Assembly (NCBI GenBank): GCA_016209865.1
Contig: JACQVL010000353.1
Coordinates: 1-27,890 of the forward strand
Source of the DNA: Candidatus Latescibacterota bacterium
GTDB lineage: Bacteria; JAAXHH01; JACQVL01
Reading direction: 5' to 3'
Length of the DNA stretch: 27,890 bases
The notes under the pieces: generated by a model
The model's input: the letters and a program-made list of their open reading frames with translations, nothing else
The model's database searches: none
Told to the model about the DNA's origin: nothing
Program-made: the position numbers and the translations under genes
Part shown: positions 2,981-27,747 of the stretch, one piece after another
How the letters are laid out: every line of letters begins with the position of its first letter
Position numbering within the stretch: position 1 is the first letter of the stretch

Positions 2981-3015
2981 AGTCGGTAATCGGTGGTCGG
3001 TGGTCAGTGGTCGGT
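2981..3015 (+). repeat. Heptad array, five GGTCGGT-type units
   Basis: Five exact 7-bp registers (AGTCGGT, AATCGGT, GGTCGGT, GGTCAGT, GGTCGGT) followed by AAAAT. The array sits inside the pil operon, 5 bp after the pilP stop and upstream of the pilQ ribosome-binding site, so it is transcribed. Confidence 0.9.
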
Positions 3016-3052
3016 AAAATTCAGATAAGGCCCTCTCTCTCAGGAACGTCGC

Positions 3053-4357
3053 ATGGCTCATACCTTACGCCGTCTGCTCCTCGTCCTCGTCGCTCTCCAG
3101 ATTCCCGTGCGCATCGCCGCCCAACAACTGGCCCCTCCTTCTCCGGCGTCCCTGGGAACGATTACCGCCAGCATGGAAGCCCTCCCGTTAGCGGACGCCA
3201 TGCAGGTGTTCGCCCTCAAGATCGGGGTCAACATCCTCATCCAGCCCGGCCTTGAGGATAAGAAGATCTCCGCCCAGTTGGGCGAACTCCCGGTTCTGGA
3301 GGCGTTCGAGGCGATCCTGCGCGCCAATGGCTTCTGGTATGAGGTCAACCCGACCGGCAACGTCTACCTGATCAAACAAGCGGACGTGTCGTTCTCCGGA
3401 CGGGTGACCGAACGGATTCCGATCCTGTTCGGGGAACCCAGACCCCTGGAAGAGGTCGTCAAGAAAGGGACGGCGGGGAGTGGCAGTTACTTCATCGACG
3501 AACGGACGAACAGCTTTATCGTGACCGACACCCCGGCCCGGATCGCCGACATCCGGCAGGTCATCACCGCCTTAGATGTCCCGGCCCCCCAGGTGTTGAT
3601 CGAGGTGGAAATCGCCTCTATCGACCGGACGGCCAACCGGCAACTGGGCATTAGCTGGGACTTCCTGGGGCAGATCGACGCCGACTCTCCGGTCGGCTCG
3701 GCGATCGGGACATCGATGTTCGATAACAAGGAAGGCAAATTCAAACTCACGTTCGGCAAATTCGTGTCCAGCGTCGGCCAGAAAGACCTGCGAGTGACAC
3801 TCGAAGCGCTCGAACGGAACGGCCTCGTCGACATCCTGGCCAGCCCACGGCTCATGACGGTCAACCGGAGGGCTGCGTCGATCAAAATCATCGATAACAT
3901 CGCCGTCGGCACCCGCATTTCACAGAGCGCCAGCGGCCTCGGCCAATCGATCACGGAGCCGATCTACAAAGATGTCGGGGTCACCCTCGACGTGACCCCG
4001 TACGTGGCCGGAGACAGCCTGGTCGTCATGGACATCACGCCGACGGTCAGTTCCGCCCAGAAGTCCCCATTCTTCCCCGCCCTGGCGGTTGACACTCAGC
4101 AACGCACGGCTCAGACCAGGGTCATGGCGAAGAATAACCAGACGATCGTCATCGGCGGGCTCCTGCAGACGAACAAGACGAGCCAGGTCACCCGCGTCCC
4201 ACTGCTCGGCCATATCCCTCTCCTCGGCTATTTCTTCCGTCAATCGACCTCCGACATACGCAAGAGCGAGGTCATCGTCTTCATCACCCCGCGCATCATC
4301 ACTACGACCAACATCGATTCGTTGAGGAAGCCGCCGGAACCGGAGAAGAAAGAGTGA
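3053..4357 (+). CDS. pilQ: Type IV pilus secretin PilQ (short form)
   Basis: PilQ is the outer-membrane multimeric channel through which the pilus exits. The 434-residue protein has a Sec signal peptide (residues 1 to about 23, cleavage near AAQ), an STN/N0-like domain (about 35-105, with a VNILIQPGLEDKKIS core), a NolW/N1-like domain (about 115-180, with the FIVTDTPARIADI motif) and the C-terminal secretin domain (about 200-420). The latter includes PLLGHIPLLGYFFR and the final VIVFITPRII strand. It lacks the N-terminal AMIN domains of long PilQ proteins. The start ATG has AGGA at 3042-3045, 7 nt upstream. It closes the pil operon and converges with mtgA. Confidence 0.93.
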   Translation: MAHTLRRLLLVLVALQIPVRIAAQQLAPPSPASLGTITASMEALPLADAMQVFALKIGVNILIQPGLEDKKISAQLGELPVLEAFEAILRANGFWYEVNPTGNVYLIKQADVSFSGRVTERIPILFGEPRPLEEVVKKGTAGSGSYFIDERTNSFIVTDTPARIADIRQVITALDVPAPQVLIEVEIASIDRTANRQLGISWDFLGQIDADSPVGSAIGTSMFDNKEGKFKLTFGKFVSSVGQKDLRVTLEALERNGLVDILASPRLMTVNRRAASIKIIDNIAVGTRISQSASGLGQSITEPIYKDVGVTLDVTPYVAGDSLVVMDITPTVSSAQKSPFFPALAVDTQQRTAQTRVMAKNNQTIVIGGLLQTNKTSQVTRVPLLGHIPLLGYFFRQSTSDIRKSEVIVFITPRIITTTNIDSLRKPPEPEKKE

Positions 4358-4444
4358 TGAACGATGAATGGAAATCCCTTTCAGATGTCATTCCCGCGCA
4401 AGCGGGGAATCCACGATTTTTCTCGTCACTCGTCACTGGTCACT
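4354..4444. repeat. Composite repeat: heptads, ATTCCC/GGGAAT palindrome, heptads
   Basis: Two heptads (GTGATGA, ACGATGA) begin on the pilQ stop codon at 4354-4367. A palindrome of the ATTCCC-N9-GGGAAT type lies at 4390-4410, followed by three heptads (CGTCACT, CGTCACT, GGTCACT) at 4424-4444 that encode the last residues and stop codon of mtgA on the other strand. The stretch 4387-4444 recurs almost intact at 7115-7171. Confidence 0.85.
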
Positions 4445-5251
4445 GCTCTTCTCCGTGCTGTCAGGCGCGGCGGGTGTCTCGGTAGGGGGTGCTTCCTCTG
4501 TCCCGAACTCCGACAGGCTGTCGGCGGGTATGGTGACAGGCGGGCGCGTCGACGGATCGCTACGAGCGCCGTACCATTCCAGCCGTTTGAGGATCAGGCT
4601 CTGGCGCCAACGTAAGCCCCGCGTCGGACGGGCGGGGTTCGTGTGCAGGGGGTTGGGGATGGTGGCGGCCAGGAGCGCGGCTTCGTCGAGGGAGAGGGCA
4701 GACGCCGATTTCCCGAAATAGACGCGAGACGCGGCTTCCACCCCATAAATCCCGTCGCCGAACTCGATCACGTTGAGGTACAGCTCGAAGATGCGCCCCT
4801 TCGACAACTCGCCCTCCAGCCGGCGGGCGATGAGGAGTTCTTTGAGCTTGCGGATGGGACTCTTCGAGGGGGACAGGTACAGGTTCTTGGCGAGCTGCTG
4901 GGTGATCGTGCTCGCCCCGCGAGCGAACCGCCTCTTCTGCCAGTTCTCCCGGAACGCTGCCCTGATCTCCTCGGCATCGAACCCGTGATGGCTGAAAAAA
5001 TTGATGTCCTCGCCGACGAGCACCGCGTTCTTCAGGGACGGGGAAATCCGGGCATAGGCCACCCAGGATTGCACGCGTCGAGGCTGCCGGCCGGCCTGTC
5101 GCGTTTCCTCAGTTCGAATCTCCATCAACGCGGTCGTTTCTGGGTTCTTCTCCTTGAGGACGGACACGTTCGGCAGCGTGGCGTACTCGATCAGCAGATA
5201 GAGGATGAATAGACCAGCGAGCCAGACAGCGATGCGGCGGGGACGAGTCAT
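4433..5251 (-). CDS. mtgA: Monofunctional biosynthetic peptidoglycan glycosyltransferase
   Basis: A GT51-family enzyme that polymerises lipid II into glycan strands at the periplasmic face of the inner membrane. It has one N-terminal membrane anchor (about residues 9-25) and then the GT51 domain. The catalytic Glu81 is in GEDINFFSHHGFD, followed by GASTITQQLAKNL (112-124), KELLIARRLE (137-146, second conserved Glu) and FELYLN. There is no transpeptidase domain, which makes it MtgA rather than a class A PBP. At 272 residues it is slightly long because of a Pro/Thr/Glu-rich C-terminal tail. The start ATG at 5251 is chosen because the anchor follows directly; the longer frame encodes only intergenic sequence. 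The last residues (SDQ-stop) are written in a heptad repeat. Confidence 0.92.
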   Translation of the reverse strand: MTRPRRIAVWLAGLFILYLLIEYATLPNVSVLKEKNPETTALMEIRTEETRQAGRQPRRVQSWVAYARISPSLKNAVLVGEDINFFSHHGFDAEEIRAAFRENWQKRRFARGASTITQQLAKNLYLSPSKSPIRKLKELLIARRLEGELSKGRIFELYLNVIEFGDGIYGVEAASRVYFGKSASALSLDEAALLAATIPNPLHTNPARPTRGLRWRQSLILKRLEWYGARSDPSTRPPVTIPADSLSEFGTEEAPPTETPAAPDSTEKSSDQ

Positions 5252-5317
5252 GGTGATGTATGGTAGGGGCGTGGGTTGTCCACGGCAAGAGAAAAATCGG
5301 TCAGGTCTGATTAATGA

Positions 5318-5347
5318 TTGACAGTGATACTTCATCTGTATTATAGT
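5318..5347 (+). promoter_or_regulatory. Predicted sigma-70 promoter of hisB
   Basis: TTGACA at 5318-5323 and TATAGT at 5342-5347, 18-bp spacer. Transcription would start in the heptad array that follows directly. Confidence 0.5.
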
Positions 5348-5368
5348 GGTCGGTGGTCGGTGATCGGT
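5348..5368 (+). repeat. Heptad array, three GGTCGGT-type units, hisB leader
   Basis: GGTCGGT, GGTCGGT, GATCGGT followed by AAAGG. It begins on the base after the predicted -10 box and ends next to the hisB ribosome-binding site, so it makes up nearly the whole predicted hisB leader. Confidence 0.88.
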
Positions 5369-5382
5369 AAAGGATGGGAACT

Positions 5383-5967
5383 GTGCGAACGGCGACGGTG
5401 CACCGCGCAACTCAAGAGACGCAGATCGACCTGACGCTGAACCTCGACGGGACGGGTGTGTTCACCGGGTCGACCGACATCGGCTTCTTCGACCATCTGC
5501 TCGCCGCGCTGACGAAACACGCGGGGTTCGACCTGACGCTGGCCTGCCGGGGTGACCTTCACATCGATGACCACCATACGGTCGAGGATGTAGGGATCTG
5601 CTTCGGACAGGCGTTCGCTCAGGCGGTGGGGGATAAATCCGGGATCGCCCGGTTCGGCTCCAGCCACGTCCCGCTCGACGAGGCGCTCGTCCGGGCGGTT
5701 GTGGACGTCAGCGGCCGGTCGTTCCTGTCGTTCGACGTGGCGTACAGCCGGCCCGACGTCGGCCGCCTCAGCACCGAACTGGTGCGCGAATTCTTCAAGG
5801 CGTTCGTCGACCATGCCCGGATCACCCTCCACCTGACCTTGCTCTCCGGCACGAACGCGCATCACCAGGTCGAGGCCACCTTCAAGGCGGCGGCGCGGGC
5901 GCTCCGGCAGGCGGTGGAGTTCGACCCGCGCGTGTCGGGTGTGCCGTCGACGAAGGGGACGCTCTGA
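5383..5967 (+). CDS. hisB: Imidazoleglycerol-phosphate dehydratase
   Basis: Catalyses dehydration of imidazole glycerol phosphate to imidazole acetol phosphate in histidine synthesis. It is a Mn-dependent cytoplasmic enzyme. The 194 residues match a monofunctional IGPD. The two family signatures are present: FFDHLLAALTKHAGFDL with DDHHTVED (about residues 36-69) and the mirrored NAHHQVEA near residue 160, whose histidines and glutamates bind the two metals. GTG at 5383 is preferred because AAAGGA at 5369-5374 is 8 nt upstream and the product then begins MRTATVHRATQET, the usual IGPD start; an ATG at 5374 would overlap that site. No other his gene is in the window, so it is separated from any his operon. 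Confidence 0.96.
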   Translation: MRTATVHRATQETQIDLTLNLDGTGVFTGSTDIGFFDHLLAALTKHAGFDLTLACRGDLHIDDHHTVEDVGICFGQAFAQAVGDKSGIARFGSSHVPLDEALVRAVVDVSGRSFLSFDVAYSRPDVGRLSTELVREFFKAFVDHARITLHLTLLSGTNAHHQVEATFKAAARALRQAVEFDPRVSGVPSTKGTL

Positions 5968-5985
5968 AAAGAGGGAAGGCTCCGC

Positions 5986-7029: not shown

Positions 7030-7033
7030 CTGC

Positions 7034-7171
7034 AGTGACGAGTGACCAGTGACGAGTAAGACACAAACTAATCCTGATGCTTTGTGACGATGGTGCCTAA
7101 TGGTGTCTCACGTTGTCATTCCCGCGCAGGCGGGAATCCATGCTGTTTCTCGTCACTCGTCACTGGTCACT
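7034..7171. repeat. Inverted heptad arrays flanking an ATTCCC-N8-GGGAAT palindrome
   Basis: AGTGACG-type heptads at 7034-7054 and CGTCACT-type heptads at 7151-7171 are inverted copies; 7041-7057 pairs perfectly with 7155-7171 over 17 bp. Between them, at 7118-7137, is a perfect ATTCCC-N8-GGGAAT palindrome, the same layout as the neisserial dRS3 repeat. Read in frame this gives the familiar spurious peptide VIPAQAGIH. Confidence 0.88.
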
Positions 7172-7192
7172 GATTTTACAGGATCACCATCC

Positions 7193-8146
7193 ATGCACAC
7201 CCATTCCCACTCCATGACTTCCCCAGATCGCATGACCCGGCGGTTCAAGTGGTCGCTCATCTTGACGCTCCTGTTCGTCGCCGGGGAGGCGCTCGCGGGC
7301 TGGTGGGCGAACAGCCTGGCGTTGTTGTCGGACGCGGGGCACAACTTAGCGGATGGGGCGGCGCTGGGTCTCTCCTGGTACGCGCTCCGGATCAGCCAGC
7401 GGGCGCCCAGCCAGGCGAAGACGTTCGGGTATCACCGGGCCGGGATTCTGGCGGCGCTCGTCAACTCGACGTCGCTCGTCGTGATCGCGCTCGCCATCTT
7501 TTATGAGGGGGCCCATCGGCTGCTCCGGCCGGAGGTCGCACAGGGGGAAGCGATGGTCGCCGTGGCCAGTGTCGCGGTGATCGTCAACACCGTGATCGCG
7601 GTCTGGCTGAGACGCGGGGGGATGCAGGACGTGAACGTGCGGAGCGCGGTGGTGCACATGATCGGGGATGCGCTGTTCTCCGTCGGCGTCATCGTGGCCG
7701 GGCTGGTGATGCTGGCGACCGGCTGGCTGGCCGCCGACCCGATCGTGAGCCTCCTCATCGGGGTGTTCATCCTGTGGAGTTCATGGGGCATCCTCAAAGA
7801 GACGGTCAATATCTTGATGGAAGGCAGTCCCCTGGAAATGGATATGGACGCCTTAGTGGAGACGATGCGCGGCGTGCCCGGCGTCCAGGGGGTGCATGAC
7901 CTGCACGTCTGGATGATCGCCTCCGGGATGCCGATGTTGAGCGCCCATGTGTTGATCGAGGACCAGGCCCTGAGCGACGGCGCGCGCGTCATCACTGCCG
8001 TCAACCACAGGCTCCAGGAGCAATTCGGCATCTGGCATACGACCCTGCAGGTCGAATGTCTCGACTGCACTCCCAACGGGCTGTACTGCACGTTACAGCC
8101 GAACCATCCTCTCGTTCACCATCATGACCACGATCATGGGAAATAG
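7193..8146 (+). CDS. Cation diffusion facilitator metal exporter (ZitB/CzcD type)
   Basis: An inner-membrane proton antiporter exporting Zn(II) or similar divalent ions from the cytoplasm. The 317-residue protein begins with a His-rich segment (MHTHSHS), has six predicted membrane helices to about residue 215, and then the cytoplasmic dimerisation domain. The transport site is complete: H50-x3-D54 in TM2 (LLSDAGHNLAD) and H155-x3-D159 in TM5 (HMIGDALFS), the pattern of Zn/Cd exporters. The C-terminus is Cys/His-rich (CLDCTPNGLYC, then HHHDHDHGK), likely a metal sensor or buffer. ATG at 7193 is chosen because AGGA at 7180-7183 lies 9 nt upstream; the longer frame only translates the repeat. 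The final Gly-Lys-stop is written in the following heptad array. Confidence 0.93.
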   Translation: MHTHSHSMTSPDRMTRRFKWSLILTLLFVAGEALAGWWANSLALLSDAGHNLADGAALGLSWYALRISQRAPSQAKTFGYHRAGILAALVNSTSLVVIALAIFYEGAHRLLRPEVAQGEAMVAVASVAVIVNTVIAVWLRRGGMQDVNVRSAVVHMIGDALFSVGVIVAGLVMLATGWLAADPIVSLLIGVFILWSSWGILKETVNILMEGSPLEMDMDALVETMRGVPGVQGVHDLHVWMIASGMPMLSAHVLIEDQALSDGARVITAVNHRLQEQFGIWHTTLQVECLDCTPNGLYCTLQPNHPLVHHHDHDHGK

Positions 8147-8178
8147 AAGATGGGAAATGGGAAACGGAAAATAGGAAA
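8137..8178 (+). repeat. Heptad array, six TGGGAAA-type units
   Basis: TGGGAAA, TAGAAGA, TGGGAAA, TGGGAAA, CGGAAAA, TAGGAAA in strict 7-bp register. The first unit encodes the last two residues of the cation exporter and the second unit starts with its TAG stop codon. Confidence 0.88.
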
Positions 8179-8188
8179 TGGGGAGAGA

Positions 8189-8235
8189 GAAGCCGTTCTC
8201 CCGTCCACTGCCCACTGCCCATCTGCCTACTGCCC
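8189..8235 (+). repeat. 47-bp direct repeat, copy 1 (contains CTGCCCA heptads)
   Basis: The block starts GAAGCCGTTC and continues into CTGCCCA/CTGCCTA heptads with one inserted T between the second and third unit. It recurs at 9208-9254 with 3 mismatches, in the same orientation, including the inserted T. The two copies bracket the REC-HATPase gene. Confidence 0.85.
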
Positions 8236-8258
8236 GGCAGGGTAGGGAGATCAGGGAG

Positions 8259-9134: not shown

Positions 9135-9183
9135 GCGAGCTCCTCCTACTGGCCTCCCCCTTCAACCCATCCCCGCCGGGCAG

Positions 9184-9255
9184 GTGGGCAATAGGCAGTG
9201 GGCAGTCGAAGCCGTTCCCCCGTCTACTGCCTACTGCCCATCTGCCTACTGCCCC
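9184..9255. repeat. Inverted heptad arrays; contains copy 2 of the 47-bp direct repeat
   Basis: GTGGGCA, ATAGGCA, GTGGGCA at 9184-9204 face CTGCCTA, CTGCCCA, (T), CTGCCTA, CTGCCCC at 9227-9255 as an inverted pair. The second half, 9208-9254, is the direct-repeat copy matching 8189-8235. Confidence 0.85.
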
Positions 9256-9281
9256 GGTGGAGAGGGGCCGGGGGTGAGGGG

Positions 9282-10958: not shown

Positions 10959-10981
10959 GGGGGCTCCTTAATACTGAGTGA

Positions 10982-13536: not shown

Positions 13537-13564
13537 GGGCGAAAAGGCGAAAGGGGAAAAAGGA
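13537..13564 (-). repeat. Degenerate heptad array, four GCGAAAG-type units
   Basis: GGGCGAA, AAGGCGA, AAGGGGA, AAAAGGA on the + strand, in the gap between the ThuA and amidohydrolase genes. More degenerate than the other arrays; 7-bp register is kept. Confidence 0.55.
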
Positions 13565-13590
13565 ATACCTCATCCTTTCTCGTTTGTACT

Positions 13591-13611
13591 CGTCACTGGT
13601 CACTCGTCACC
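13591..13611 (-). repeat. Heptad array over the ThuA stop codon
   Basis: CGTCACT, GGTCACT, CGTCACC on the + strand. The last unit contains the complement of the ThuA TGA stop. Same word family as at 4424, 7034 and 7151. Confidence 0.88.
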
Positions 13612-15178: not shown

Positions 15179-15199
15179 GTTCAGTGGTCAGTGGTCAGA
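15179..15199 (-). repeat. Heptad array, three GGTCAGT-type units
   Basis: GTTCAGT, GGTCAGT, GGTCAGA in the leader of the DUF6807 gene. GTGGTC at 15191-15196 can also pair with GACCAC at 15203-15208. Confidence 0.75.
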
Positions 15200-15240
15200 A
15201 AAGACCACCACGAATAGAGATGTACGGGTATCCGGCAGAG

Positions 15241-15269
15241 AGTATGCGCCAAACGCGGGAGCGTGTCAA
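15241..15269 (-). promoter_or_regulatory. Predicted sigma-70 promoter of the DUF6807-ThuA cluster
   Basis: Read on the minus strand: TTGACA (15269-15264), 17-bp spacer, CATACT (15246-15241). It faces away from the promoter at 15286-15314; the two -35 boxes are 16 bp apart. Confidence 0.6.
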
Positions 15270-15285
15270 TACCTTTTGCACCGAC

Positions 15286-15314
15286 TTGACAAATACTCGG
15301 AAAGGAGCTATTCT
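15286..15314 (+). promoter_or_regulatory. Predicted sigma-70 promoter of the 92-residue Cys protein
   Basis: TTGACA at 15286-15291, 17-bp spacer, TATTCT at 15309-15314. It is divergent from the cluster promoter at 15241-15269. Confidence 0.6.
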
Positions 15315-15316
15315 AC

Positions 15317-15337
15317 ACCGACCACCGACTACCGACC
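15317..15337 (+). repeat. Heptad array, three ACCGACC-type units
   Basis: ACCGACC, ACCGACT, ACCGACC (reverse complement of the GGTCGGT word). It begins 3 bp after the predicted -10 box, so the transcript would start within it. Confidence 0.85.
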
Positions 15338-15362
15338 ACCGCGTTCACGAGGTGACTCTACG

Positions 15363-15718: not shown

Positions 15719-15750
15719 ACGCCGACATTCGACGACAATACGGATGTGAC

Positions 15751-15906
15751 AGTCGCCAAATCCGGGCAGACGCCCGGAGCGGGGGATCGTGCACACCCGG
15801 CGGGCAGGTCAGGCCGGGTGACCGGGGTGTATCCTGCGCGTCAACGACGCAGGACGGATACCTTTCGTCCGAACCCGTCAACTAACCTCGTCGGCACGGA
15901 AAGGAG
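15751..15906 (+). promoter_or_regulatory. ydaO/yuaA-type c-di-AMP riboswitch
   Basis: The leader carries the conserved ydaO-yuaA elements in order. These are a GCC-A-AATCC entry, a perfect 7-bp stem-loop (15761-15767 with 15772-15778) followed by GGAGCGGGGGA, an 8-bp variable stem (15794-15801 with 15813-15820), GGGTGTATCC, a second stem-loop (TCCTGCG with CGCAGGA), GGATACC, and the hallmark CCGAACCCGTCA followed by ACTAACCTCG (15869-15890), ending in GGAAAGGAG. Set against the Bacillus and Thermoanaerobacter ydaO sequences I remember, the invariant core is almost identical. The closing P1 helix appears short (GCC with GGC). With the downstream intrinsic terminator it should be an OFF switch: c-di-AMP binding favours termination. 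Confidence 0.92.
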
Positions 15907-15925
15907 TCGCCACGCGCGTGCCGTA

Positions 15926-16002: not shown

Positions 16003-17733
16003 ATGATGATGCTGGCCAAGAGGCCGCGGAACGTGAACTCGTTGCGGGCCGCAGCCATGCTGTACGGGGACTGGGGGACGAGCAAGGCGTACGTCACCGG
16101 GATTGCGTTCACCTTAGCCGGGTACGCCTCGTTCCCCCTGATCGTCGCCATGGCGATCCTGACGACGATCGTCGGGATCAACTACATCTGGGTGTGCAAG
16201 TACTACCCGGACGGCGGGGGAGTCTACTCGTCGGTGCGGAACCGTTCACGGACGCTGGCGGTCGTGGGCGGCTTGCTCCTGATCGCGGACTACGTCGTGA
16301 CTGCGGCGTTGAGTTCCTTAGATGCGTTCCATTACCTCGGCGTCGCCAACCCGGCGTGGTGGGCGATCGGGACGCTCATCCTCATCGGCCTGATCAACGT
16401 CGTCGGCCCGAAGCACAGCGGCGGCCTGGCCGTCTTCCTTGCCGCGCCGGTCATCGTCGTCGTGCTCACCCTCGTCTTCGTCGCGATTCCTCATTACGGA
16501 GCAGCGACCGTCCTGCCGCCGAGCGGTGGGGTCAAACAGACGTGGCTGACGTTCGTCGGGATCATCTTAGCCCTCTCCGGGGTGGAAGCGGTCGCCAACA
16601 TGACGGGCGTGATGCCCCTCGACCCGGGCAGCACGGACGACCGTCCCTCCGTCCATAAGACCGCCCGCCGGGCGATCGTGCCGGTCATGTTCGAAGTCAC
16701 GGTCATGACCGTCCTGCTCGGCCTGGCGATGCATGCGGTCCCCAACCTGAAGGAACATACGGAGGACATGGTCCGGTTTTTAGGGGAGTACTACCTCGGC
16801 GCCTGGTTTGGCCAGATCGTGAGCGTCGTGTTCGCGTTACTCCTGCTGTCCGCCGCCAACACCGCCATCGTCGCCCTGGTCGCCATGATGTATTCGATGT
16901 CCCGTGACCGGGAGATGCCGTTTTCCTTCAGCCAGCTCAACACCTTCGGAGTGCCGTGGCTGCCGCTGATCGTGGCGACCGCGTTGCCCGTCATCGTCCT
17001 GGCGATCGAACATGACTTAGAGCGCTTAGCCGCGCTGTACGCGATCGGGGTCATCGGCGCGATCACGATCAACTTAGGCTCCTGCGCGACCAACAAGACA
17101 CTCAACCTCAGGAAATACGAACGGCTGATCATGGGGGCCACGTTTGCCCTGTTGGCGGTCGTCGAGTTGACGATCGCCTACCAGAAGCACCATGCGCTCA
17201 TCTTCGCGGCGACGGTCATGGGGGTCGGGCTGACCGTCCGCGGGGTGGCCCGGCGGGTCGAGCGGGGAGTGCCTGAGGTCGTGGTCGAGGCGCCCCGGGT
17301 GGATATCGAAACTCTGTTGCGAGGGATGGAAGTGCCCGCCGCTGCCCTGATGGTGGCGGTCCGGGGGGTGACGGAGACCCTCCGGTTTGCGGTCGAAGAG
17401 GCCAAGCTGCGTGGCGCGACCCTGTACGTCCTGTTCGTCCGGGAGATCGCCATCCGGGGGACGGCGGAATTCACCCTCGATCAAGACTCAACCGCTCAGG
17501 CGATTTTCTCTGCGGCCAGACAATTAGCCGATGGCGTCCCGGTCATCCCGTTGTATTGTGTGAGTGATGACTCCGCCGGGATGATCCTCGACCAGGCGGC
17601 GACGCTCGGCGTGGATTATCTCATCCTCGGCACCTCGGCCCGGAGCCGGCTGGTGCACCTGCTGAGGGGGAACGTCATTCAAGAGGTGGCGGGCAAACTG
17701 CCGGAAGAGATCAAGCTGATTATCCACGGATAG
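16003..17733 (+). CDS. KimA-like potassium importer (APC superfamily) with Usp-like C-terminal domain
   Basis: A 576-residue inner-membrane transporter with about 12 helices (residues 10-415) and a cytoplasmic Usp-like domain (about 432-576). Remembered Bacillus KimA residues for potassium or proton binding have counterparts: Asp23 and Tyr30 (YGDWGTSKAY), Asp96, Tyr97 and Thr100 (ADYVVT), Ser192 for Thr (LSGVEAVAN) and Tyr346 (LYAIGV); the YPDGGGVY loop is also shared. The Usp-like domain keeps LGTSARSRL...LLRGN, but the canonical G-2x-G-9x-G-S/T nucleotide motif is degenerate; in KimA this domain binds c-di-AMP. Control by a c-di-AMP riboswitch fits a K+ importer better than an amino-acid permease, the generic annotation. 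Three consecutive ATGs (16003, 16006, 16009) follow AGGAG at 15986-15990; the first gives the shortest spacing (12 nt). Confidence 0.82.
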   Translation: MMMLAKRPRNVNSLRAAAMLYGDWGTSKAYVTGIAFTLAGYASFPLIVAMAILTTIVGINYIWVCKYYPDGGGVYSSVRNRSRTLAVVGGLLLIADYVVTAALSSLDAFHYLGVANPAWWAIGTLILIGLINVVGPKHSGGLAVFLAAPVIVVVLTLVFVAIPHYGAATVLPPSGGVKQTWLTFVGIILALSGVEAVANMTGVMPLDPGSTDDRPSVHKTARRAIVPVMFEVTVMTVLLGLAMHAVPNLKEHTEDMVRFLGEYYLGAWFGQIVSVVFALLLLSAANTAIVALVAMMYSMSRDREMPFSFSQLNTFGVPWLPLIVATALPVIVLAIEHDLERLAALYAIGVIGAITINLGSCATNKTLNLRKYERLIMGATFALLAVVELTIAYQKHHALIFAATVMGVGLTVRGVARRVERGVPEVVVEAPRVDIETLLRGMEVPAAALMVAVRGVTETLRFAVEEAKLRGATLYVLFVREIAIRGTAEFTLDQDSTAQAIFSAARQLADGVPVIPLYCVSDDSAGMILDQAATLGVDYLILGTSARSRLVHLLRGNVIQEVAGKLPEEIKLIIHG

Positions 17734-17738: not shown

Positions 17739-17787
17739 AAGGTCGAAAGGTCAGATTCCGACCTTCCGACTTTATGACCTTCCAACC
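17739..17787. repeat. Octad (8-bp period) array with inverted halves
   Basis: Two AAGGTCGA-type 8-mers (17739-17754) are followed by four TTCCGACC-type 8-mers (17756-17787), inverted relative to each other. GAAGGTCG (17738-17745) pairs with CGACCTTC (17759-17766). It fills the gap between the convergent transporter and rho genes. It might terminate transcription, but there is no T-tract. Confidence 0.7.
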
Positions 17788-19041: not shown

Positions 19042-19372
19042 GTCGCGATCACCTCATGAGGACGCAACACGCCGAATGTGCTGCGTGATGAGTGGGACAG
19101 GACGACTGAGAGAGGAAGGTGTACGATGACCGGTGACACGTGTTGTACCAATTGCGGATTGCCGATTGCGGATTGAAAGCCTCTTAACGCCCAAGTGATC
19201 ACAAGCAAAACATGGTGGTTGAAGGGGCAATCGGTATTAGACGGGAGAGGAGCGGAAGAGACTCCCAGAACCCTGGCAGATCGAAGAACCTGGACGGTCA
19301 ATCAGGATGAGGCAACGCTAAACGGGGACCCGCGTCGGTATGCTGTGGGTCGGAAGAACTGATATCACGCTC
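19042..19372 (-). other. Long untranslated leader of rho
   Basis: About 330 nt between the predicted rho promoter and the rho start, without a convincing ORF. It contains the heptad array at 19151-19178 and pyrimidine-rich tracts on the transcribed strand. Such a leader could host Rho-dependent autoattenuation, as described for E. coli rho; here this is inference from length and position. Confidence 0.5.
19151..19178 (-). repeat. Heptad array, ATTGCGG-type units in the rho leader
   Basis: ATTGCGG, ATTGCCG, ATTGCGG, ATTGAAA on the + strand, in strict 7-bp register, inside the predicted rho leader. Confidence 0.85.
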
Positions 19373-19837: not shown

Positions 19838-19866
19838 AGGAACCGATTCCTCCACGGGCACTCCAT

Positions 19867-19977
19867 TTTGGATTTGGGATTTTAGATTTTGGATTGACTG
19901 AAAAGACCAATCAGGCTCCAAACGGAGGGCCGGGTTGAAAATCTTTAATCCAAAATCCACAATCTAAAATCCCAAAT
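19867..19977. repeat. Inverted heptad arrays (TTTGGAT / AATCCAA)
   Basis: TTTGGAT, TTGGGAT, TTTAGAT, TTTGGAT at 19867-19894 and AATCTTT, AATCCAA, AATCCAC, AATCTAA, AATCCCA at 19940-19974. The arms are inverted copies around a 45-bp spacer and could form a long AT-rich hairpin between minE and the finger gene. The second arm ends about 10 bp from the minE stop codon. Confidence 0.88.
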
Positions 19978-19985
19978 TTATTCGC

Positions 19986-20261: not shown

Positions 20262-20284
20262 TGGCTCCTTTGAATCTCTCAGAG

Positions 20285-20340
20285 GGGTCAGGGGTCAGGA
20301 GTCAGGGAGGCCAGAGACCTGTCACCCCTGACATCTGACA
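20285..20340. repeat. Inverted heptad arrays between minD and minE
   Basis: GGGTCAG, GGGTCAG, GAGTCAG at 20285-20305 face CCTGACA, TCTGACA at 20327-20340 as inverted copies. The array lies within the min operon and would form a hairpin in its mRNA. Confidence 0.8.
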
Positions 20341-20360
20341 CCCGCGCTCACAGGTCGTCG

Positions 20361-21965: not shown

Positions 21966-22011
21966 GGCGCGTTCAGCGTCCGATCGCACGGTCTGGAAGG
22001 GACATGCAGAA

Positions 22012-22039
22012 GTAGGGGCGCAGAATGCTGCGCCCCTAC
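22012..22039. repeat. 28-bp REP-like palindrome in the minC leader
   Basis: GTAGGGGCGCAG (22012-22023) and its exact complement CTGCGCCCCTAC (22028-22039) around a 4-nt loop. Such GTAGGGGCG palindromes are dispersed in many genomes. Here it would form a very stable hairpin in the minC mRNA leader. Confidence 0.9.
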
Positions 22040-22123
22040 AGCCGTGCCATTCACCAACCGATTACCGAATTTGTTCATCAACATTCATAAATGGGGACGC
22101 TCAATCAATGTTAAGTTGACTGT

Positions 22124-22151
22124 AGTATAGTAGATAGCGAGGATTTGTCAA
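22124..22151 (-). promoter_or_regulatory. Predicted sigma-70 promoter of minCDE
   Basis: Read on the minus strand: TTGACA (22151-22146), 16-bp spacer, TATACT (22129-22124). AT-rich surroundings and the position upstream of minC support it. Confidence 0.65.
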
Positions 22152-22171
22152 GATAAAAATTAAGGGATGAT

Positions 22172-22196
22172 AAAAAAAGCCCGCTGAAGCAAGGGG
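22172..22196 (-). terminator. Probable intrinsic terminator after the kinase-M23-aminotransferase gene
   Basis: On the minus strand a short stem (22193-22189 with 22184-22180, two G-U pairs, 4-nt loop) is followed by GC and seven T (complement of 22172-22178). It lies about 20 nt past the stop codon at 22216. Confidence 0.55.
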
Positions 22197-22215
22197 TTGA
22201 GGGCACAAAACTGCG

Positions 22216-25200
22216 TCAACGGAGCTGGACAAAATCCTCCTGCAGGATTTTCTCTAACGTGTGGACGAGGAACTCCGCGTTCTCCTCCGTAAACACCAGG
22301 GGCGGCTTGATTTTCAGGACGTTGTGGAGCGGCCCGTCGGTGCTCATCAGGATGCCGTGGTCTTTCATCCGGTTGGCGATGTACGACGCCTGGTCGCCGG
22401 CGGGCTCCAGCGTCGTCCGGTCGAGCACCAGCTCCACCCCGATGAACAGGCCCAGCCCCCGGACGTCGCCGATCAGAGGATACCGCCCGATCAGTCGCTC
22501 CAGCCCGGCTTTCAGCCGCGCCCCCACCCTCAGGGCGTTCTCCTGCAGGCGCTCGTCGCGCATCACGTCGAGCACCGCCATCCCGATCGCGCAGGACACC
22601 GGGTTGCCCCCGAACGTGTTGAAATACTCCATCCCGTTGGCGAACGCGTCGGCGATGTCAGGGGAGGTGATGACGGCCGCTAACGGATGGCCGTTGCCCA
22701 TCGGCTTGCCGAGCGTGACGATGTCGGGCACCACCCCCTGCGTCTCGAACCCCCAGACATGCGTCCCGACCCGGCCGAACCCGACCTGCACTTCATCGAC
22801 GATGCACACCCCGCCCGCGTCGCGCACGTGCCGGAACGCCTCTTTGAAGTAATTATCCGGCAGGACGATCTGACCACCGCAGCCTAACAACGACTCTGCC
22901 AGAAACCCGCAGACCCCCCGGCCCTGGTCGCGCACCCGCTGGATCGCCTCATGGACGTGTCGAGCGTATTTCGTCCCCGCCTCCGGGTCCGTCCCCTTAT
23001 ACGGCCCGCGGTACGGGTCGGGCATGATCACGGTGTGGACGTGCGGGGGCGCGCCTGAGCCGCCGGGGCCGTCGAATTTGTACGGACTGACCTCGATGAG
23101 GGAGGTGAGGTTGCCGTGGTACGCGCCGTCTACGACGAGGATATCCCGCTGTTCCGTGTACGCGCGCGCTAAGCGGAGCGCTAAGTCGTTCGCCTCGCTC
23201 CCCGAGTTGACGAAGAAGCAGACGCGCAGCGGCTCCGGGAATGTCGCGCAGAGCCGTTCCGCGTAGTCGACGACGTGGTCGTACAGGTACCGGGTGTTGG
23301 TGTTGAGCACCGCCATCTGTCGCTGTCCGGCTCTGACCACGCGGGGATGGCAGTGGCCGACGTGGGGGACGTTGTTGACCGCATCCAGGTACGCGCGGCC
23401 GGCGTCGTCGTACAGGTACTGCATCAACCCGCGGACGATCTTGAGCGGCGTCCGGTAGGAGATGCTGAGGGATTTGCCGATGTGCCGCCGCCGCAGCCGG
23501 AGGGTGTCGTCCCGGCTGCGCCCCCTGGCCGGGAACCGGCTCTCCGGGACGCCGACGATGAGGTTGGGGTCGGGACACAGGCTCAGCCAGACGTCCCGCT
23601 GGCCCGGCGCGGCCACGCCGGGAAAATCCCCACACTTGCCGAGCAGGTCGGTGATGACCTGGAAATGCAGATGGGGCGGCCAGCCGCCGTTCACGGACGG
23701 GTCGCCGATGCGGGCGATCCGATCCCCCTTCTTCACCGGCATCCCGACGGACAGGCCGTCGAGCGAGTCGAGGCTTAAATGGCCGTACAGCGTGTAGAAC
23801 GGGGGGATGTCGTCCGCGACCCGGTGTTCGAGGATGATCGTCGGCCCGTAGTCGAGCGGGGCGGCGTTGTTCTGGAAGCTCTGAACGATCCCGTCGAGCG
23901 GGACGAAGATGGGCGACCCCGGCTCCAGGAACAGGTCGAGGCCGATATGGATCGTCCGCCGCTCCGGGAGTTCGTCGGAGGCGACCCGGTACTGGTCGCT
24001 CGCATAGATCAGCCGGGGTTCATCGTACCGGCCGATGCCGACCGCGGCCTGTTCCTGACGAACCCGGCGGAATAGTAAGTCGGTGAACGCCTGGGTATCA
24101 GACCGATCCTCAACTAAGGCGAGGTCGAGGTTGCCCACGCTCAGGTCGAAGACGACGGCGTTGGTGACATCCACATCCGGTCCCATCACCGCGCCGAGGC
24201 GGCCGGCGTGGGTCTTGAGCCAGTCGACCACCCCCGCAGTCTGAGGGCAGGGCGGCAGGCCGCAGGCGTGACGGAACGTGTAGTGCGCGAAGTTCGGATG
24301 GAGGTCACGAAGCCGTTCTAACAGCCCCCATGCCGGCTCCTCGCTCACGGAGAGGTACGGGTTCTCCGGCTCATCCTGCTGCTGGCGGGCGGAGATGGCC
24401 ACGCTCAAACACAGCCGCATGCAGATAAAGTCGTACAGGAGTTCCAGTTCCTGCTCGGTCAACGGATACTCCGCATGGTACCCGCTCACCACCGGCGCGG
24501 CGGCCGCCAACGGGTCGGCCTTGCCGAGCATGACGTACGCTAAGGCGACCGACAGGTCGCACACGGTGAAGGAAATCACCGTGTCCCCGAAGTCGATCAG
24601 CCCAACGGCTCGTTTCACCCACGACCGGGGGTCGTCCGGCTCCGCAGCCGCGACGAGGACGTTGTAGTCGTTCGCGTCGTCCTGGATGACGCTCCGGCGC
24701 AGGGACGGCAACGCGGGGACGACGTGCGCCTCGTAGCGCGCCAGGGCGGCCATGACTAAGCCCCGCCGTTGCGAGTCGGGGATCGACCCGGCGTAATCCC
24801 GGATGACGGCCGGGGCATTGTCGGGGTTCCACTTCAACTCCTGCTGGACGGCCGGATGGGAAAGTCCCTCGAGCGCCCGGCTCATCCGGCCGAGGAACTC
24901 CCCTAAACTCCGGAGGAGGTCGGGGGTGTGGGGCCTGACATCGACCAGCCGCTTCCCCGGCAGGTACGTCAGGAGCCGGACGAAGAACGCCGAACCGTTC
25001 GGCCCGTTCACGGCACCGATCAGCCCACCCGTCGTCGTCGGGCACACCCGAGGCCAGATGCCATCTCCCTGGCGGGCGCTGAGATGTTCGAGCACCTTGT
25101 TCTGGAAATCGAGCACCTCGCGCTGCTCGGCGGAGTTGGCGATTTTCAGGACGAACCCCTCGCCTGCCGTAGTGGTCAAATGGAAATTCTGGTCGCGGTC

Positions 25201-25305
25201 ACTCGGCAAAGGCCTGGCGGCGGCGATGAGGTTGTACAACGCGCGGGCGATGCGGACGGCATCCCCCTCGGAGAAGCGCGGCCGGTGTGGGGCGATGGCG
25301 GACAT
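22216..25305 (-). CDS. Three-domain fusion: APH-like kinase, M23 peptidase-like, class III aminotransferase/phospho-lyase
   Basis: A 1029-residue protein. Residues about 10-345 are an aminoglycoside-phosphotransferase-fold kinase like hydroxylysine kinase, with VLKIANS (nucleotide Lys) and DFG-like DFGDT at 238; the catalytic loop reads Q208-D-D-A-N-D-Y-N215, with Gln where family members usually have His. Residues about 445-560 are an M23/LytM domain with complete Zn ligands: H453-x3-D457 and H545-x-H547 (PHLHFQ). Residues about 610-1025 are a class III PLP enzyme (NSGSEAND, DEVQVGFGR with Asp837, Lys867 in TLGKPMGNG), closest to the phospho-lyases ETNPPL/PHYKPL. Kinase plus phospho-lyase would phosphorylate and then eliminate phosphate and ammonia from a hydroxy-amine such as hydroxylysine or ethanolamine; this is inferred from homologues. 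GAGGAG 7-8 nt upstream fixes the ATG. Confidence 0.92.
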   Translation of the reverse strand: MSAIAPHRPRFSEGDAVRIARALYNLIAAARPLPSDRDQNFHLTTTAGEGFVLKIANSAEQREVLDFQNKVLEHLSARQGDGIWPRVCPTTTGGLIGAVNGPNGSAFFVRLLTYLPGKRLVDVRPHTPDLLRSLGEFLGRMSRALEGLSHPAVQQELKWNPDNAPAVIRDYAGSIPDSQRRGLVMAALARYEAHVVPALPSLRRSVIQDDANDYNVLVAAAEPDDPRSWVKRAVGLIDFGDTVISFTVCDLSVALAYVMLGKADPLAAAAPVVSGYHAEYPLTEQELELLYDFICMRLCLSVAISARQQQDEPENPYLSVSEEPAWGLLERLRDLHPNFAHYTFRHACGLPPCPQTAGVVDWLKTHAGRLGAVMGPDVDVTNAVVFDLSVGNLDLALVEDRSDTQAFTDLLFRRVRQEQAAVGIGRYDEPRLIYASDQYRVASDELPERRTIHIGLDLFLEPGSPIFVPLDGIVQSFQNNAAPLDYGPTIILEHRVADDIPPFYTLYGHLSLDSLDGLSVGMPVKKGDRIARIGDPSVNGGWPPHLHFQVITDLLGKCGDFPGVAAPGQRDVWLSLCPDPNLIVGVPESRFPARGRSRDDTLRLRRRHIGKSLSISYRTPLKIVRGLMQYLYDDAGRAYLDAVNNVPHVGHCHPRVVRAGQRQMAVLNTNTRYLYDHVVDYAERLCATFPEPLRVCFFVNSGSEANDLALRLARAYTEQRDILVVDGAYHGNLTSLIEVSPYKFDGPGGSGAPPHVHTVIMPDPYRGPYKGTDPEAGTKYARHVHEAIQRVRDQGRGVCGFLAESLLGCGGQIVLPDNYFKEAFRHVRDAGGVCIVDEVQVGFGRVGTHVWGFETQGVVPDIVTLGKPMGNGHPLAAVITSPDIADAFANGMEYFNTFGGNPVSCAIGMAVLDVMRDERLQENALRVGARLKAGLERLIGRYPLIGDVRGLGLFIGVELVLDRTTLEPAGDQASYIANRMKDHGILMSTDGPLHNVLKIKPPLVFTEENAEFLVHTLEKILQEDFVQLR

Positions 25306-25354
25306 GGGATCACTCCTCAATGCCTGGCGATGTACACGGTCGTGGGCATATCGA

Positions 25355-25383
25355 AATTGAAGTGAGATTGACCCCATTGTCAA
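25355..25383 (-). promoter_or_regulatory. Possible promoter of the fusion gene
   Basis: Read on the minus strand: consensus TTGACA (25383-25378), 17-bp spacer and a poor -10 box TCAATT (25360-25355), about 50 nt before the start codon. Only the -35 is convincing. Confidence 0.35.
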
Positions 25384-25455
25384 GATCAAAATGTGAGAAA
25401 AATAAGAGAGCCCTTTCCCCGTGTCGGTCAAAAGTATTCTGATGTGAAGAGCATT

Positions 25456-25490
25456 TTATCTGTTATCCCTCAATCCTTTATCCCATCCCG
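25456..25490 (-). repeat. Heptad array over the 3' end of the DUF4382-like gene
   Basis: TTATCTG, TTATCCC, TCAATCC, TTTATCC, CATCCCG on the + strand. Units three to five contain the stop codon and last codons of the coding sequence, so the C-terminal RDGIKD is encoded by repeat sequence. Confidence 0.75.
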
Positions 25491-26246
25491 GTTGTCGTCC
25501 TCAAAGCCCGTGATAGAGGCGCGGATATTGTCCTTCACGAGATTCTCGTTGCGCCCCCCCGTATTGGCCGACCTCGGATCGACCAGTACTCCTCTGGCGT
25601 CACGGAACCAACGGTTCAGGTCTACGATGAATGTCTCATTGTTCACCGTGTCATGCACCGCCACTATCGGAAGATCGAACATGATTTGCTGTTTCTCGTT
25701 CAGGTCGGTGGTGAATGTGAACGGGACAGGATGACGCCCGGCGGACGTCCAAGTCCCCGTCACCCGGACGCTCACCCCATCGGGGAAGTCCGTGGTCTGG
25801 AGGAACCCTGTGTCGATCGGAGCCTCGCGCCTGTTATACACCTCCAACTCGACCTCATCCCAGGACCCCGCCGGGAGAGAGACCACTGAGGCGATCACTG
25901 GCTTCGTGGCGTCCAGCGGGAGACACACTAAGAACGGTTCCATCTCAACGTGGTCTTTCGCACTATCGTCATAGGCACGCTTGAAGCTGAGCGTTCGGAG
26001 GACGAGCTCGACAGTGGCGATCTGCACGACGTTGTGATTCCCGTCGGTGATGGACAGAGTGGCACGGTCCTGGCCTCCGCTGCTCGGACTCGTCGCGGCT
26101 TTGAACGACAAGGTGACGGGGACCTTGCTCAAGGGAAGGGTGTTGCCGGTGTTGCAGGCCACCGGCGTGGCCGCGGCCATCAGAGCAAGAAGGAAATGGC
26201 CCACGGCTGAGAGAAGGCTCCGCAAACCTCCCAGAGTCGCGTTCAT
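25470..26246 (-). CDS. Putative DUF4382-like lipoprotein
   Basis: A 258-residue secreted protein. The N-terminus has a hydrophobic signal (about residues 8-27) ending PVAC, a weak lipobox, so an outer-membrane or surface lipoprotein is likely. The body is beta-rich, with RATLSITDGNHNVVQIATVEL-like strands and a SLPAGSWDEVELEVYN motif (about 125-140) typical of DUF4382-type Ig-like domains. The C-terminus reads DDNRDGIKD, an EF-hand-like DxNxDGxxD calcium loop, partly encoded in a heptad array, so it may be fortuitous. AGAAGG about 8 nt upstream supports the ATG at 26246. The frame stays open for 77 more codons upstream, but that stretch is a broken gene. Family call is tentative. Confidence 0.68.
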   Translation of the reverse strand: MNATLGGLRSLLSAVGHFLLALMAAATPVACNTGNTLPLSKVPVTLSFKAATSPSSGGQDRATLSITDGNHNVVQIATVELVLRTLSFKRAYDDSAKDHVEMEPFLVCLPLDATKPVIASVVSLPAGSWDEVELEVYNRREAPIDTGFLQTTDFPDGVSVRVTGTWTSAGRHPVPFTFTTDLNEKQQIMFDLPIVAVHDTVNNETFIVDLNRWFRDARGVLVDPRSANTGGRNENLVKDNIRASITGFEDDNRDGIKD

Positions 26247-26460
26247 GAGACATGCCTTCTCGCCGTCCTTCATTGCCATGGACGACCCCGTTCCAGCAGC
26301 ACCGCCGGCGGCTGCTCCGATTAAGGTGCTCTTCCCGTCACGAGCGTAATGGAGTCGAACGTCAGAGTCATCGAGGCCTTGTGACTCATCCGTCCAGCCG
26401 GGTTGACCTCGTTGACCGCCCCATTGATGATGGTACCCGGCGTAATGACCTCGTCCACCT
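26247..26460 (-). pseudogene. Remnant of a glycine-zipper envelope protein gene
   Basis: Two fragments of one recognisable protein type lie in different frames. The frame from 26458 to the TAA at 26321-26323 reads VDEVITPGTIINGAVNEVN, PAGRMSHKASMTLTFDSITL, VTG, matching the 'IPAGT-x-G-x-V-x-PAGR-x-L-x-FDS' module. The frame continuing into the next gene's leader reads STLIGAAAGGAAGTGS and MAMKDGEKA, matching the glycine-zipper half of the same family. The linker and zipper start between them are missing and the frame changes, so an internal deletion is likely. The 5' part is also gone (a TAA precedes the first fragment). The comparison is from memory of the family. Confidence 0.55.
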
Positions 26461-26502
26461 TTTAGACGAACGATCATCTCGAACGTTACAACGATTCAGC
26501 CC

Positions 26503-27630
26503 TCAACTGCCCGCCGCGGTCGCCAGGCGCTCGTCGCGGACGACGAACCGGGCGTCGAGGGCGCGCAGCTTCTCGACGATGCCGGTGTACTCCAGTTCGT
26601 CCTTCCCTAACATCGCCGCCCCGGAGAACCCCTGCCGCCGGATCTCGATGGCCTTCTGCGCGACGTGCTCCCGGACGTAATCCCAGAACGGATGATCGAA
26701 CGCATCCGCCGGGTCGGTGAGCTTGCCGGCATGCACGCAGAAGCCTAAACAGGACACGACCGGCGGCCCGTCGAAGTAGGACGTTGTCCCGTTCTTCTTC
26801 ACCGGCATGAGCGGCCCGACATGACTCCCGCGCATGAACCCCGCCACATAATGGCCGATGGCGTAGGGGGCGACGACCTCGCCGGTGGCCGGGAACCCGC
26901 CCTGGGTGCGGACGAGCAGCACCGGGTCGTCCTTCCCGGTGTACTTGCCGGCGATGTTGTGCAGCCGGGTGGTGGAGACGGCCGCGGCCTGCTCCCCGTC
27001 GGTGCGGGAGTAGATCGCCTCCACGACGAACCGCTGGTTGTCCCGCAGGAGGGCGGCGATGTCGTAGAGGTCTTCCGGGGCGTTCAGCTCGATCACCCGG
27101 TCGCCGTCGGTGTGGGCGACATCCAGGATGACGAACCGGAAGCCGTGACTCATCTTGGGGGAGAGGAGCAGGCCGGCGTTGTGCATCGGGTCGGCGAAGG
27201 TGAGGTACAGGGGCAGGTTGTAGGCGCCGGGGTCGGTCTTGTCGGCCATGAACAGCAGGAACGGCTCGTTGGGACGTTCCTCGAACTCCAACTCCGCCAC
27301 GGCCGGCCCCAGGCCTTTGACGTTGCCGGAGAAGGCGTCCTTCAGCAAGTCCTGGCCCGCCCCGTACAGGCCCTGCTCTTTGGCCAGGGCGGTGCCAGCG
27401 ACGAAGGCGTCCCAGGCGAGTTGATGGACGCGGGCATCCCCGACGCCGCGCGGGTGGGTGCCCAGGATGGCGATGTCATCCCCGGTGGCCCCGACGTAGG
27501 CATCGGTGAGCAGCCCCCCGCCGTGCCGCCGGACGTGCGTCTGGACGCAGTCGACCAGTTGGGGGCTGGGCATGAGGTGGCCCGCGACCCCCCCGATATC
27601 CGCTTTGATCACACTCAACGTCGTCCGCAT
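26503..27630 (-). CDS. Archaeal-type bifunctional fructose-1,6-bisphosphate aldolase/phosphatase
   Basis: A class V FBPase (FBPA/P) that condenses triose phosphates and dephosphorylates the FBP in one active site, making gluconeogenesis unidirectional. The 375 residues match the family length. Visible active-site residues are SVIKADIGGVAGH (Asp11, His18) at the N-terminus, GDD (50-52), Gln93 region, ADKTDPGAYN (129-138) and GKYTGKDDP, with Tyr230 and Lys233 equivalent to the Tyr and Schiff-base Lys at 229/232 of the Thermoproteus enzyme as I recall it. All metal-binding acids look intact. AGGAGG upstream supports the ATG. In bacteria the enzyme occurs in a few, often deep-branching or thermophilic lineages. 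Confidence 0.95.
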   Translation of the reverse strand: MRTTLSVIKADIGGVAGHLMPSPQLVDCVQTHVRRHGGGLLTDAYVGATGDDIAILGTHPRGVGDARVHQLAWDAFVAGTALAKEQGLYGAGQDLLKDAFSGNVKGLGPAVAELEFEERPNEPFLLFMADKTDPGAYNLPLYLTFADPMHNAGLLLSPKMSHGFRFVILDVAHTDGDRVIELNAPEDLYDIAALLRDNQRFVVEAIYSRTDGEQAAAVSTTRLHNIAGKYTGKDDPVLLVRTQGGFPATGEVVAPYAIGHYVAGFMRGSHVGPLMPVKKNGTTSYFDGPPVVSCLGFCVHAGKLTDPADAFDHPFWDYVREHVAQKAIEIRRQGFSGAAMLGKDELEYTGIVEKLRALDARFVVRDERLATAAGS

Positions 27631-27649
27631 CGTCTCTTCCCTCCTGGAA

Positions 27650-27747
27650 ATGATGAACGATGAATGATGAACGATGAATGAAAAATCTACACGCTGTCAT
27701 GCCCGCGCAAGCGGGAATCCATTCATTCAGCATTCATCATTCATCGC
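27650..27747. repeat. Inverted heptad arrays flanking a palindrome
   Basis: ATGATGA, ACGATGA, ATGATGA, ACGATGA at 27650-27677 face ATTCATT, CAGCATT, CATCATT, CATCGCT at 27721-27748 as inverted copies. Between them at 27699-27718 is the palindrome ATGCCC-N8-GGGAAT, one mismatch from those at 4390 and 7118. Same architecture as 7034-7171. Confidence 0.85.

Follow-up and report, generated by a model that had tools for sequence, protein, structure and literature searches.

We have studied a stretch of 27,890 nucleotides (the window) from contig JACQVL010000353.1 of a Candidatus Latescibacterota bacterium, assembly GCA_016209865.1 (denoted G000). The gaps between its genes contain tandem arrays of heptanucleotide words, which are probably the arms of foldback elements related to those that carry S23p, the gene of 23S rRNA intervening sequences (IVSs). 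A first-pass annotation had described about 24 arrays of period 7 bp, written in about ten words, with a single exception of period 8. The arrays are real, but their number was put slightly too high: with Tandem Repeats Finder we obtain about 20 distinct arrays of period 7 and, as described, one of period 8 (at 17756). Being tandem heptads in intergenic DNA, they are heptanucleotide simple sequence repeats (SSRs), of the kind called short tandemly repeated repetitive (STRR) sequences. To our knowledge such repeats have been described in bacterial intergenic DNA since the cyanobacterial STRRs, and have no accepted origin.

Heptad arrays and their inverted pairing

The genome-scale sample comprised the window and 60 further stretches of the same assembly, 695 kb out of 3.75 Mb. 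Some contigs were chosen because they match ATTGCGG, so that absolute array densities may be slightly high; the contrast between lags and that with coding sequence are independent of this choice. At a score of at least 13 there are 123 arrays at lag 7, compared with 0 in Markov-shuffled sequence, and the other lags (2-6, 8-13 and 15) give 0-7 arrays each. At a threshold of 9, 176 lag-7 arrays are noncoding and 45 coding, corresponding to 2.22/kb and 0.073/kb when the two classes are divided by a dicodon gene finder made for the present analysis. The predicted excess of lag-7 autocorrelation in noncoding DNA over both shuffled and coding sequence was thus found. Clustering the words yields 15 families that cover the noncoding arrays, confirming a recurring multi-word set, although of the words originally listed TTATCCC forms no array and GCGAAAG at 13538 is weak (12% indels). 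The recurrence of one word at distant sites is borne out by ATTGCGG alone, arrays of which give 55 pattern matches across the whole genome.

The array had been taken as the unit, and a further level of organization was overlooked. When the gaps are printed one by one, there is an array on each side, the second being the reverse complement of the first. Inverted same-word pairs account for 30 of the 47 pairs of neighboring arrays in G000, while permutation of the word labels gives a mean of 3.7 and a maximum of 11; local slippage alone is therefore insufficient, as the annotation had argued. Within a word the order of the pair is constant (ACGAGTG 12/12, AAGGACG 7/7, AAAATCC 5/5). The 5′ arm contains more G than C in 34 of 35 pairs, with one tie. 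In two Pyrinomonadaceae genomes (Acidobacteriota), G059 and G060, the corresponding numbers are 50 pairs against 0 with 14 ties, and 32 against 2 with 4 ties. The same polarity is seen in convergent gaps, and it is therefore a property of the element and not of gene leaders. Since same-word arrays are paired in inverted orientation, with the G-rich strand nearly always in the 5′ arm, we conclude that the arrays are the arms of foldback elements of ~70-250 bp, and we are almost certain of this anatomy. The window elements, and likewise the S23p loci described below, can form a long stem from their complementary ends, the former with RNA fold z-scores of -3.1 to -5.8. The elements as a whole have the inverted ends of short tandem repeats and variable core that characterize foldback (FB) elements. 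The elements of the window are collected in Table 1.

Table 1. Heptad elements and solo arms identified in the window
Position	Strand	Element	Arms, core and context
2982..3015	+	Solo arm	GGTCGGT; directly after stop of gene 2424-2975
4357..4444		Mixed element	Left arm GATGAAC/GATGAAT; core palindrome GTCATTCCCGCG..GGGGAATCCA; right arm CTCGTCA
5346..5368	+	Solo arm	GGTCGGT; directly 3′ of promoter-like TTGACA-17-TATTAT
7034..7171		Complete foldback element	Arms AGTGACG (7034-7057), CTCGTCA (7149-7171); RNA fold z = -5.8
8136..8235		Chimeric element	Left arm GGGAAAT; GGGCAGT-family core GAAGCCGTTCTCCCGTCC and right arm ACTGCCC
9178..9253		Foldback element, GGGCAGT family	Core GAAGCCGTTCCCCCGTC; RNA fold z = -5.7
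13538..13610		Mixed element	One GGCGAAA-like and one ACTCGTC array
15181..15341		Element with related arms	GGTCAGT (15181-15198), CACCGAC (15316-15341); brackets divergent gap, promoter-like core
17740..17787		Period-8 foldback element	Arms GGTCGAAA / TTCCGACC; RNA fold z = -3.2
19151..19175	+	Solo arm	ATTGCGG
19865..19977		Complete foldback element	Arms GATTTTG, AATCCAA; RNA fold z = -5.1
20283..20345		Foldback element	Arms GGGTCAG and complement; RNA fold z = -3.1
27649..27745		Complete foldback element	Arms GATGAAC/GATGAAT, TTCATTC; core with GTCATGCCCGCGCAAGCGGGAATCCA; RNA fold z = -3.9

A second palindromic repeat, GTCATTCCCGCG..CGGGAATCCA, is present in the cores of several heptad elements, both in the window (at approximately 4385-4410, 7118-7145 and 27692-27718) and elsewhere in the genome. 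We take it to resemble dRS3 of Neisseria. The arrays in 5325-5368 and 15290-15341 start 1-7 bases past a -10-like box, as if at a transcription start.

S23p genes within heptad arms

An ordinary gene flanked by two elements is expected to lie between W′ (upstream) and W (downstream), where W is the word and W′ its complement, whereas a gene carried by an element should lie between W and W′. Four genes have the latter arrangement in G000, one of which is S23p (PF05635/TIGR02436, a four-helix bundle). The others encode a protein with no Pfam match, a methyltransferase and a cohesin/fn3 protein; we rejected these as cargo, and take them to be ordinary genes between single arms. We know of no role for S23p/four-helix proteins, which are annotated very widely.

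The association of S23p with heptad arms extends to many phyla. Over all sets, 53 of 94 PF05635 loci are bracketed by same-word inverted heptad arrays. This was found for 19 of the best 30 loci (from 24 genomes, with many different words), for 10 of 20 in a further set, for 11 of 14 plasmid loci (from Cyanobacteria, Bacteroidota, Gemmatimonadota and Azospirillum) and for 13 of 30 in a held-out set from another class, five of which are clipped by contig ends. By comparison, none of 26 control loci encoding Y1 transposase or reverse transcriptase is bracketed, and for ordinary genes the frequency is about 2% (8/438, 3/230 and 8/226). Among the first 64 S23p loci there are arrays on both sides in 43, and in 40 of these they are inverted copies of the same word, as against 2.7 (maximum 8) with shuffled partners. 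The flanking arrays of these 64 loci are mostly at lag 7 (105, as against 12 at 8, 7 at 9, and 0-1 at 5, 6 and 10), and the median enclosed element is 488 bp long. Some arms have period 8 in place of 7, as in the window element at 17740-17787 and at locus L354, and these include arms around S23p (4 of the 64 loci by the lag-8 test). S23p had no match in the phages searched.

Several S23p copies can be related to the small elements of the same genome. An S23p/four-helix open reading frame (ORF) lies inside the elements at G000:C104, C67, G060:C110 and many other loci, and is absent from the small elements of the window. The element at G000:C104 has GGGCAGT arms and, just inside its left arm in a subterminal position, the 13-mer GACGGGGGAACGG. 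Five other G000 contigs contain small elements with this 13-mer as their core, and the window element at 9178-9253 has its reverse complement GAAGCCGTTCCCCCGTC in that place. The cores of the GGGCAGT family thus recur across G000, unlike most others; of 33 cores examined, just 5 resemble another in the sample. The arms of a second S23p copy in G000 have the word AAGGACG and those of the G060 copy AGTGACA, in each case a major local word. By virtue of these shared cores and words, the window elements belong to families that either have S23p-bearing forms in the same genome or share words with them. In G059 and G060 the word families have recognizable cores of ~20-60 bp; for some elements there are ~40 relatives, with identities of 84-91%. 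We consider the kinship of heptad elements with S23p to be highly probable.

One S23p element with heptad arms lies inside a 23S rRNA gene. Locus L358 of Azospirillum matches large subunit (LSU) rRNA over the whole of its 2175 bases (Rfam LSU, 1554 bits) and contains S23p between GGACGGA-type arms; it is therefore a classical IVS with heptad arms. In the Coxiella IVS, S23p is preceded by GACAGAT heptamers, of which there are three or two according to the strain, and IVS RNA is excised by RNase III (PMC4990558). IVSs with an S23p ORF (Leptospira, Coxiella, Azospirillum) resemble the elements described here in protein family, hairpin-forming ends, length (~0.4-0.5 kb) and, in the latter two genera, heptamers. 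However, they are described as inserts in rRNA helices, whereas the present elements are mostly intergenic, number hundreds of copies, mostly lack the gene and have word families. Only L358 was found within 23S rRNA, and the intergenic window elements are thus IVS-like, but not IVSs in the strict sense.

On three cyanobacterial plasmids (L351, Anabaena sp. 90; L356, Pseudanabaena galeata; L357, Picosynechococcus PCC 7003) S23p is located in CRISPR operons, between cas6 and cas4 or between cas10 and cmr3. In a Dolichospermum plasmid of 99% identity, another insert occupies such a site.

Word turnover and movement

The genomes G059 and G060 are ~94-95% identical and syntenic over roughly 90 kb, where by eye we identified ~31 orthologous gaps holding an element. 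The word is kept in ~18, while in ~12 both arms have a different word and the core is also different between the same flanking genes, and 1 gap is empty in one genome. Examples of such swaps are GTGACGA to ATTGCGG (L228, 2429), GTGAATC to GTTTCAA (L231, 6181) and GTTTCAA to GTCAGTT (L227, 12207). Nested and doubled elements also occur (L231, 11197), and unit number differs between the two genomes. The comparison of relatives that the first-pass annotation had suggested thus gives word change, unit-number change and an empty site. That these are draft assemblies is a caveat for the swaps, yet the swaps lie inside long contigs with unique flanks. The scarcity of empty slots points to one of two possibilities: insertion may go together with loss of the old element, or occupied gaps may be favored. 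The outer ends of GTGACRA elements in these genomes often lead directly into start codons (GTCACTGTTTTCTTATG), and a clear Shine-Dalgarno sequence is lacking there.

Filled and empty sites are seen on cyanobacterial plasmids. In Nostoc N6 a 182 bp gene-less element has inserted into an S23p ORF flanked by arms of the same word. The site is intact in two relatives, and comparison with these shows a clean insertion, with no target base lost or duplicated. The plasmids pNsp_a and pNsp_c have S23p elements in neighboring gaps of one operon, each providing the empty site of the other; TTCTA flanks one gap on both sides, and there is extra sequence in the other. Further empty sites were found on other plasmids. 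The target-site duplication of a DDE-type miniature inverted-repeat transposable element (MITE) was not seen, since genome-wide the direct repeats in the flanks equal those of shuffled flanks.

The words themselves are a poor guide to descent. Exact AGTGACG 24-mers occur in at least 117 stretches from many phyla, and loci with this word contain further words and inverted pairs. We rejected horizontal spread of the word, because heptad arrays are widespread and the reversed control word is as common as the true one in relatives; a word shared by distant genomes is therefore weak evidence of descent. Three relatives of G060 (G065, G066 and G067) have at most 1 match to the GTGACRA word and match the reversed word 7-19 times, so that vocabularies differ even between related genomes.

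Origin of the heptad elements

We interpret the heptad arrays as the arms of mobile foldback elements of the IVS/S23p type and of their gene-less derivatives, to which we assign a probability of about 0.8. In this reading an element comprises a G-rich heptad array, a core and the complementary array, with one word in both arms. The parent form would be ~0.5 kb with a single gene in its core, S23p/IVP (PF05635/TIGR02436), and the gene-less intergenic elements of 70-250 bp would be its deletion derivatives or descendants. The annotation had suggested a maintained or copied system; copying agrees with elements that are dispersed and replaced, but the unit is a two-armed hairpin element and not the array. 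It had named no agent, for which there is now a candidate in the S23p/four-helix gene found inside arms of the same kind.

How such elements might move is more tentative. The mobile form may be the hairpin, as RNA or single-stranded DNA, which S23p could bind and mobilize, with host enzymes copying it into new sites. Slippage would alter the number of units, and copying from arm to arm would keep the arms alike, so that drift of the word could leave period and symmetry unchanged. The elements would be tolerated in gaps and in rRNA because a hairpin there can be excised by RNase III or is harmless. We think this scheme of binding, host copying and arm-to-arm correction rather more likely to be wrong than right.

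A number of observations count against the assignment to mobile S23p-type elements. The cores in G000 are mostly unrelated to each other, and many arrays there are solo or mixed. The strict bracket test takes in only 53 of the 94 S23p loci, and G059, a draft genome, gave no S23p match despite ~330 matches to arrays of one word. Replacement outnumbers empty sites by ~12 to 1 between G059 and G060, which plain transposition does not predict, and in two of the plasmid comparisons of filled and empty sites some of the target has been replaced, not merely split. A profile search found neither Y1_Tnp nor RVT_1 in G000, G059 or G060, and we know of no catalytic activity for S23p.

Polymerase slippage has been given as the cause of the known heptamer excess in bacterial intergenic DNA (Mrazek 2007, cited in PMC4692102). 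The arrays might then be SSRs arising from a polymerase that favors a 7-base step, with the pairs and gene links as by-products, and the variation of unit number between G059 and G060 and among Coxiella strains (PMC4990558) accords with this. However, slippage makes no inverted copy of the same word 20-160 bp away (30/47 against 3.7), nor does it account for fixed polarity, whole-element swaps or the 40/43 same-word enclosure of one gene family, and as a full explanation it is very unlikely. Selection for regulatory structures (terminators, RNase III sites, G-quadruplexes or translational leaders), in which words are free while the structure is kept, would explain the strong hairpins (z down to -5.8), the abutment of arms on stop and start codons, and the slots of G059 and G060 that stay occupied while words change. 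Both a translational role for TAACTGA arrays (MacGregor, PMC4679880) and G-quadruplexes (Rehm, PMC4692102) have been proposed. But polarity is unchanged in convergent gaps, where no leader needs it, and dispersed copies with shared cores, enclosure of S23p, insertions into an ORF and 23S rRNA, and empty sites in relatives are all left unexplained. We therefore regard regulation as a very improbable origin, although it may be a secondary role of the elements.

The remaining alternatives also invoke mobility. Elements that are short, palindromic, intergenic and dispersed, like families of MITEs or of REPINs and bacterial interspersed mosaic elements (BIMEs), could be non-autonomous partners of a conventional transposase, either DDE or the RAYT type associated with repetitive extragenic palindromes (REPs), with S23p as a passenger. 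Y1_Tnp (PF01797) is nevertheless missing from G000, G059 and G060, which are the three genomes richest in arrays, whereas up to 13 are present in array-poor relatives, and we rejected a RAYT/Y1 enzyme as the agent; no search was made for DDE transposases acting in trans. With no Y1 locus bracketed by heptad arms, and target-site duplications neither above shuffled flanks nor present at the N6 insertion, this explanation seems improbable. The lack of target duplication, genome-wide and in N6, would equally suit retro-mobile elements, in which S23p acts with a reverse transcriptase on the excised hairpin RNA. S23p proteins match DivGenRetAVD (1e-6 to 1e-8) and bAvd-like (6e-5), from which S23p appears to be a remote relative of Avd of the diversity-generating retroelements, and RNase III does excise IVS RNA (PMC4990558). 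On the other hand, the Avd match of 27-33 bits is below the curated cut-off of 80, and RVT_1 (PF00078) has no match in G000 or G059-G064, so that reverse transcriptase was also rejected as the agent. We consider the retro-mobile explanation unlikely, and prefer mobile foldback elements of the S23p type.

The closest published repeats share part of this organization. GGGAATC repeats of Xanthomonas and Nostoc (Rehm 2015, PMC4692102) and cyanobacterial STRRs also have period 7, about four units and an intergenic location with the G-rich strand away from the ORF, and in Xanthomonas there are the same polarity, a preference for four units and 70-75 convergent pairs per genome. Unlike the present sets, GGGAATC repeats are of one word per genome and have been read as SSRs or G-quadruplexes, with neither a mobile-element reading nor a link to S23p. 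X. campestris has an S23p protein of known structure (XCC0516/2gsc). Beggiatoaceae TAACTGA repeats are likewise of period 7, intergenic, beside start codons and patchy across phyla, but have one word and are almost all direct (169 sets, one indirect; MacGregor 2015, PMC4679880). REPINs and BIMEs with RAYT are also short inverted pairs scattered in intergenic DNA; however, they are not heptad and need the Y1 transposase that is absent from G000, G059 and G060. Eukaryotic FB transposons have long inverted ends made of short tandem repeats, variable in unit number and in core, as here, but these ends are much longer, and the elements are moved by a DNA transposase with target duplication and have no S23p.

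It is possible, though we rate the chance a little below even, that bacterial heptanucleotide repeats in general, from the cyanobacterial STRRs, GGGAATC of Xanthomonas and TAACTGA of Beggiatoa to the present multi-word sets, are the ends of one class of mobile hairpin. This class would cross phyla, have S23p as its only gene, move independently of any known transposase or reverse transcriptase, and rewrite its ends in such a way that the word changes at constant period. While heptad repeats and IVSs are each already known, we have found no description of them as a single class that spans phyla, has forms with and without the gene, and rapidly changes its words. Of the papers searched, PMC4990558 alone names both heptamers and S23p, and none was found linking heptad repeats at large with S23p. 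Such a link would bring two separate puzzles together in a single, testable class of mobile element. It would give S23p a place, as the gene inside the arms, explain 23S rRNA IVSs as one landing site among many, and predict filled and empty sites traceable in culture collections. If S23p does mobilize hairpins with neither transposase nor reverse transcriptase, the mechanism would be new.

Two features of the window stand apart from the arrays. A c-di-AMP riboswitch (RF00379, 61 bits) lies at 15744-15911, upstream of gene 16003-17733, which encodes an amino-acid permease with a C-terminal universal stress domain. The 1071-aa ORF at 22216-25431 is a fusion of an APH-type phosphotransferase, an M23 peptidase and a class III aminotransferase.

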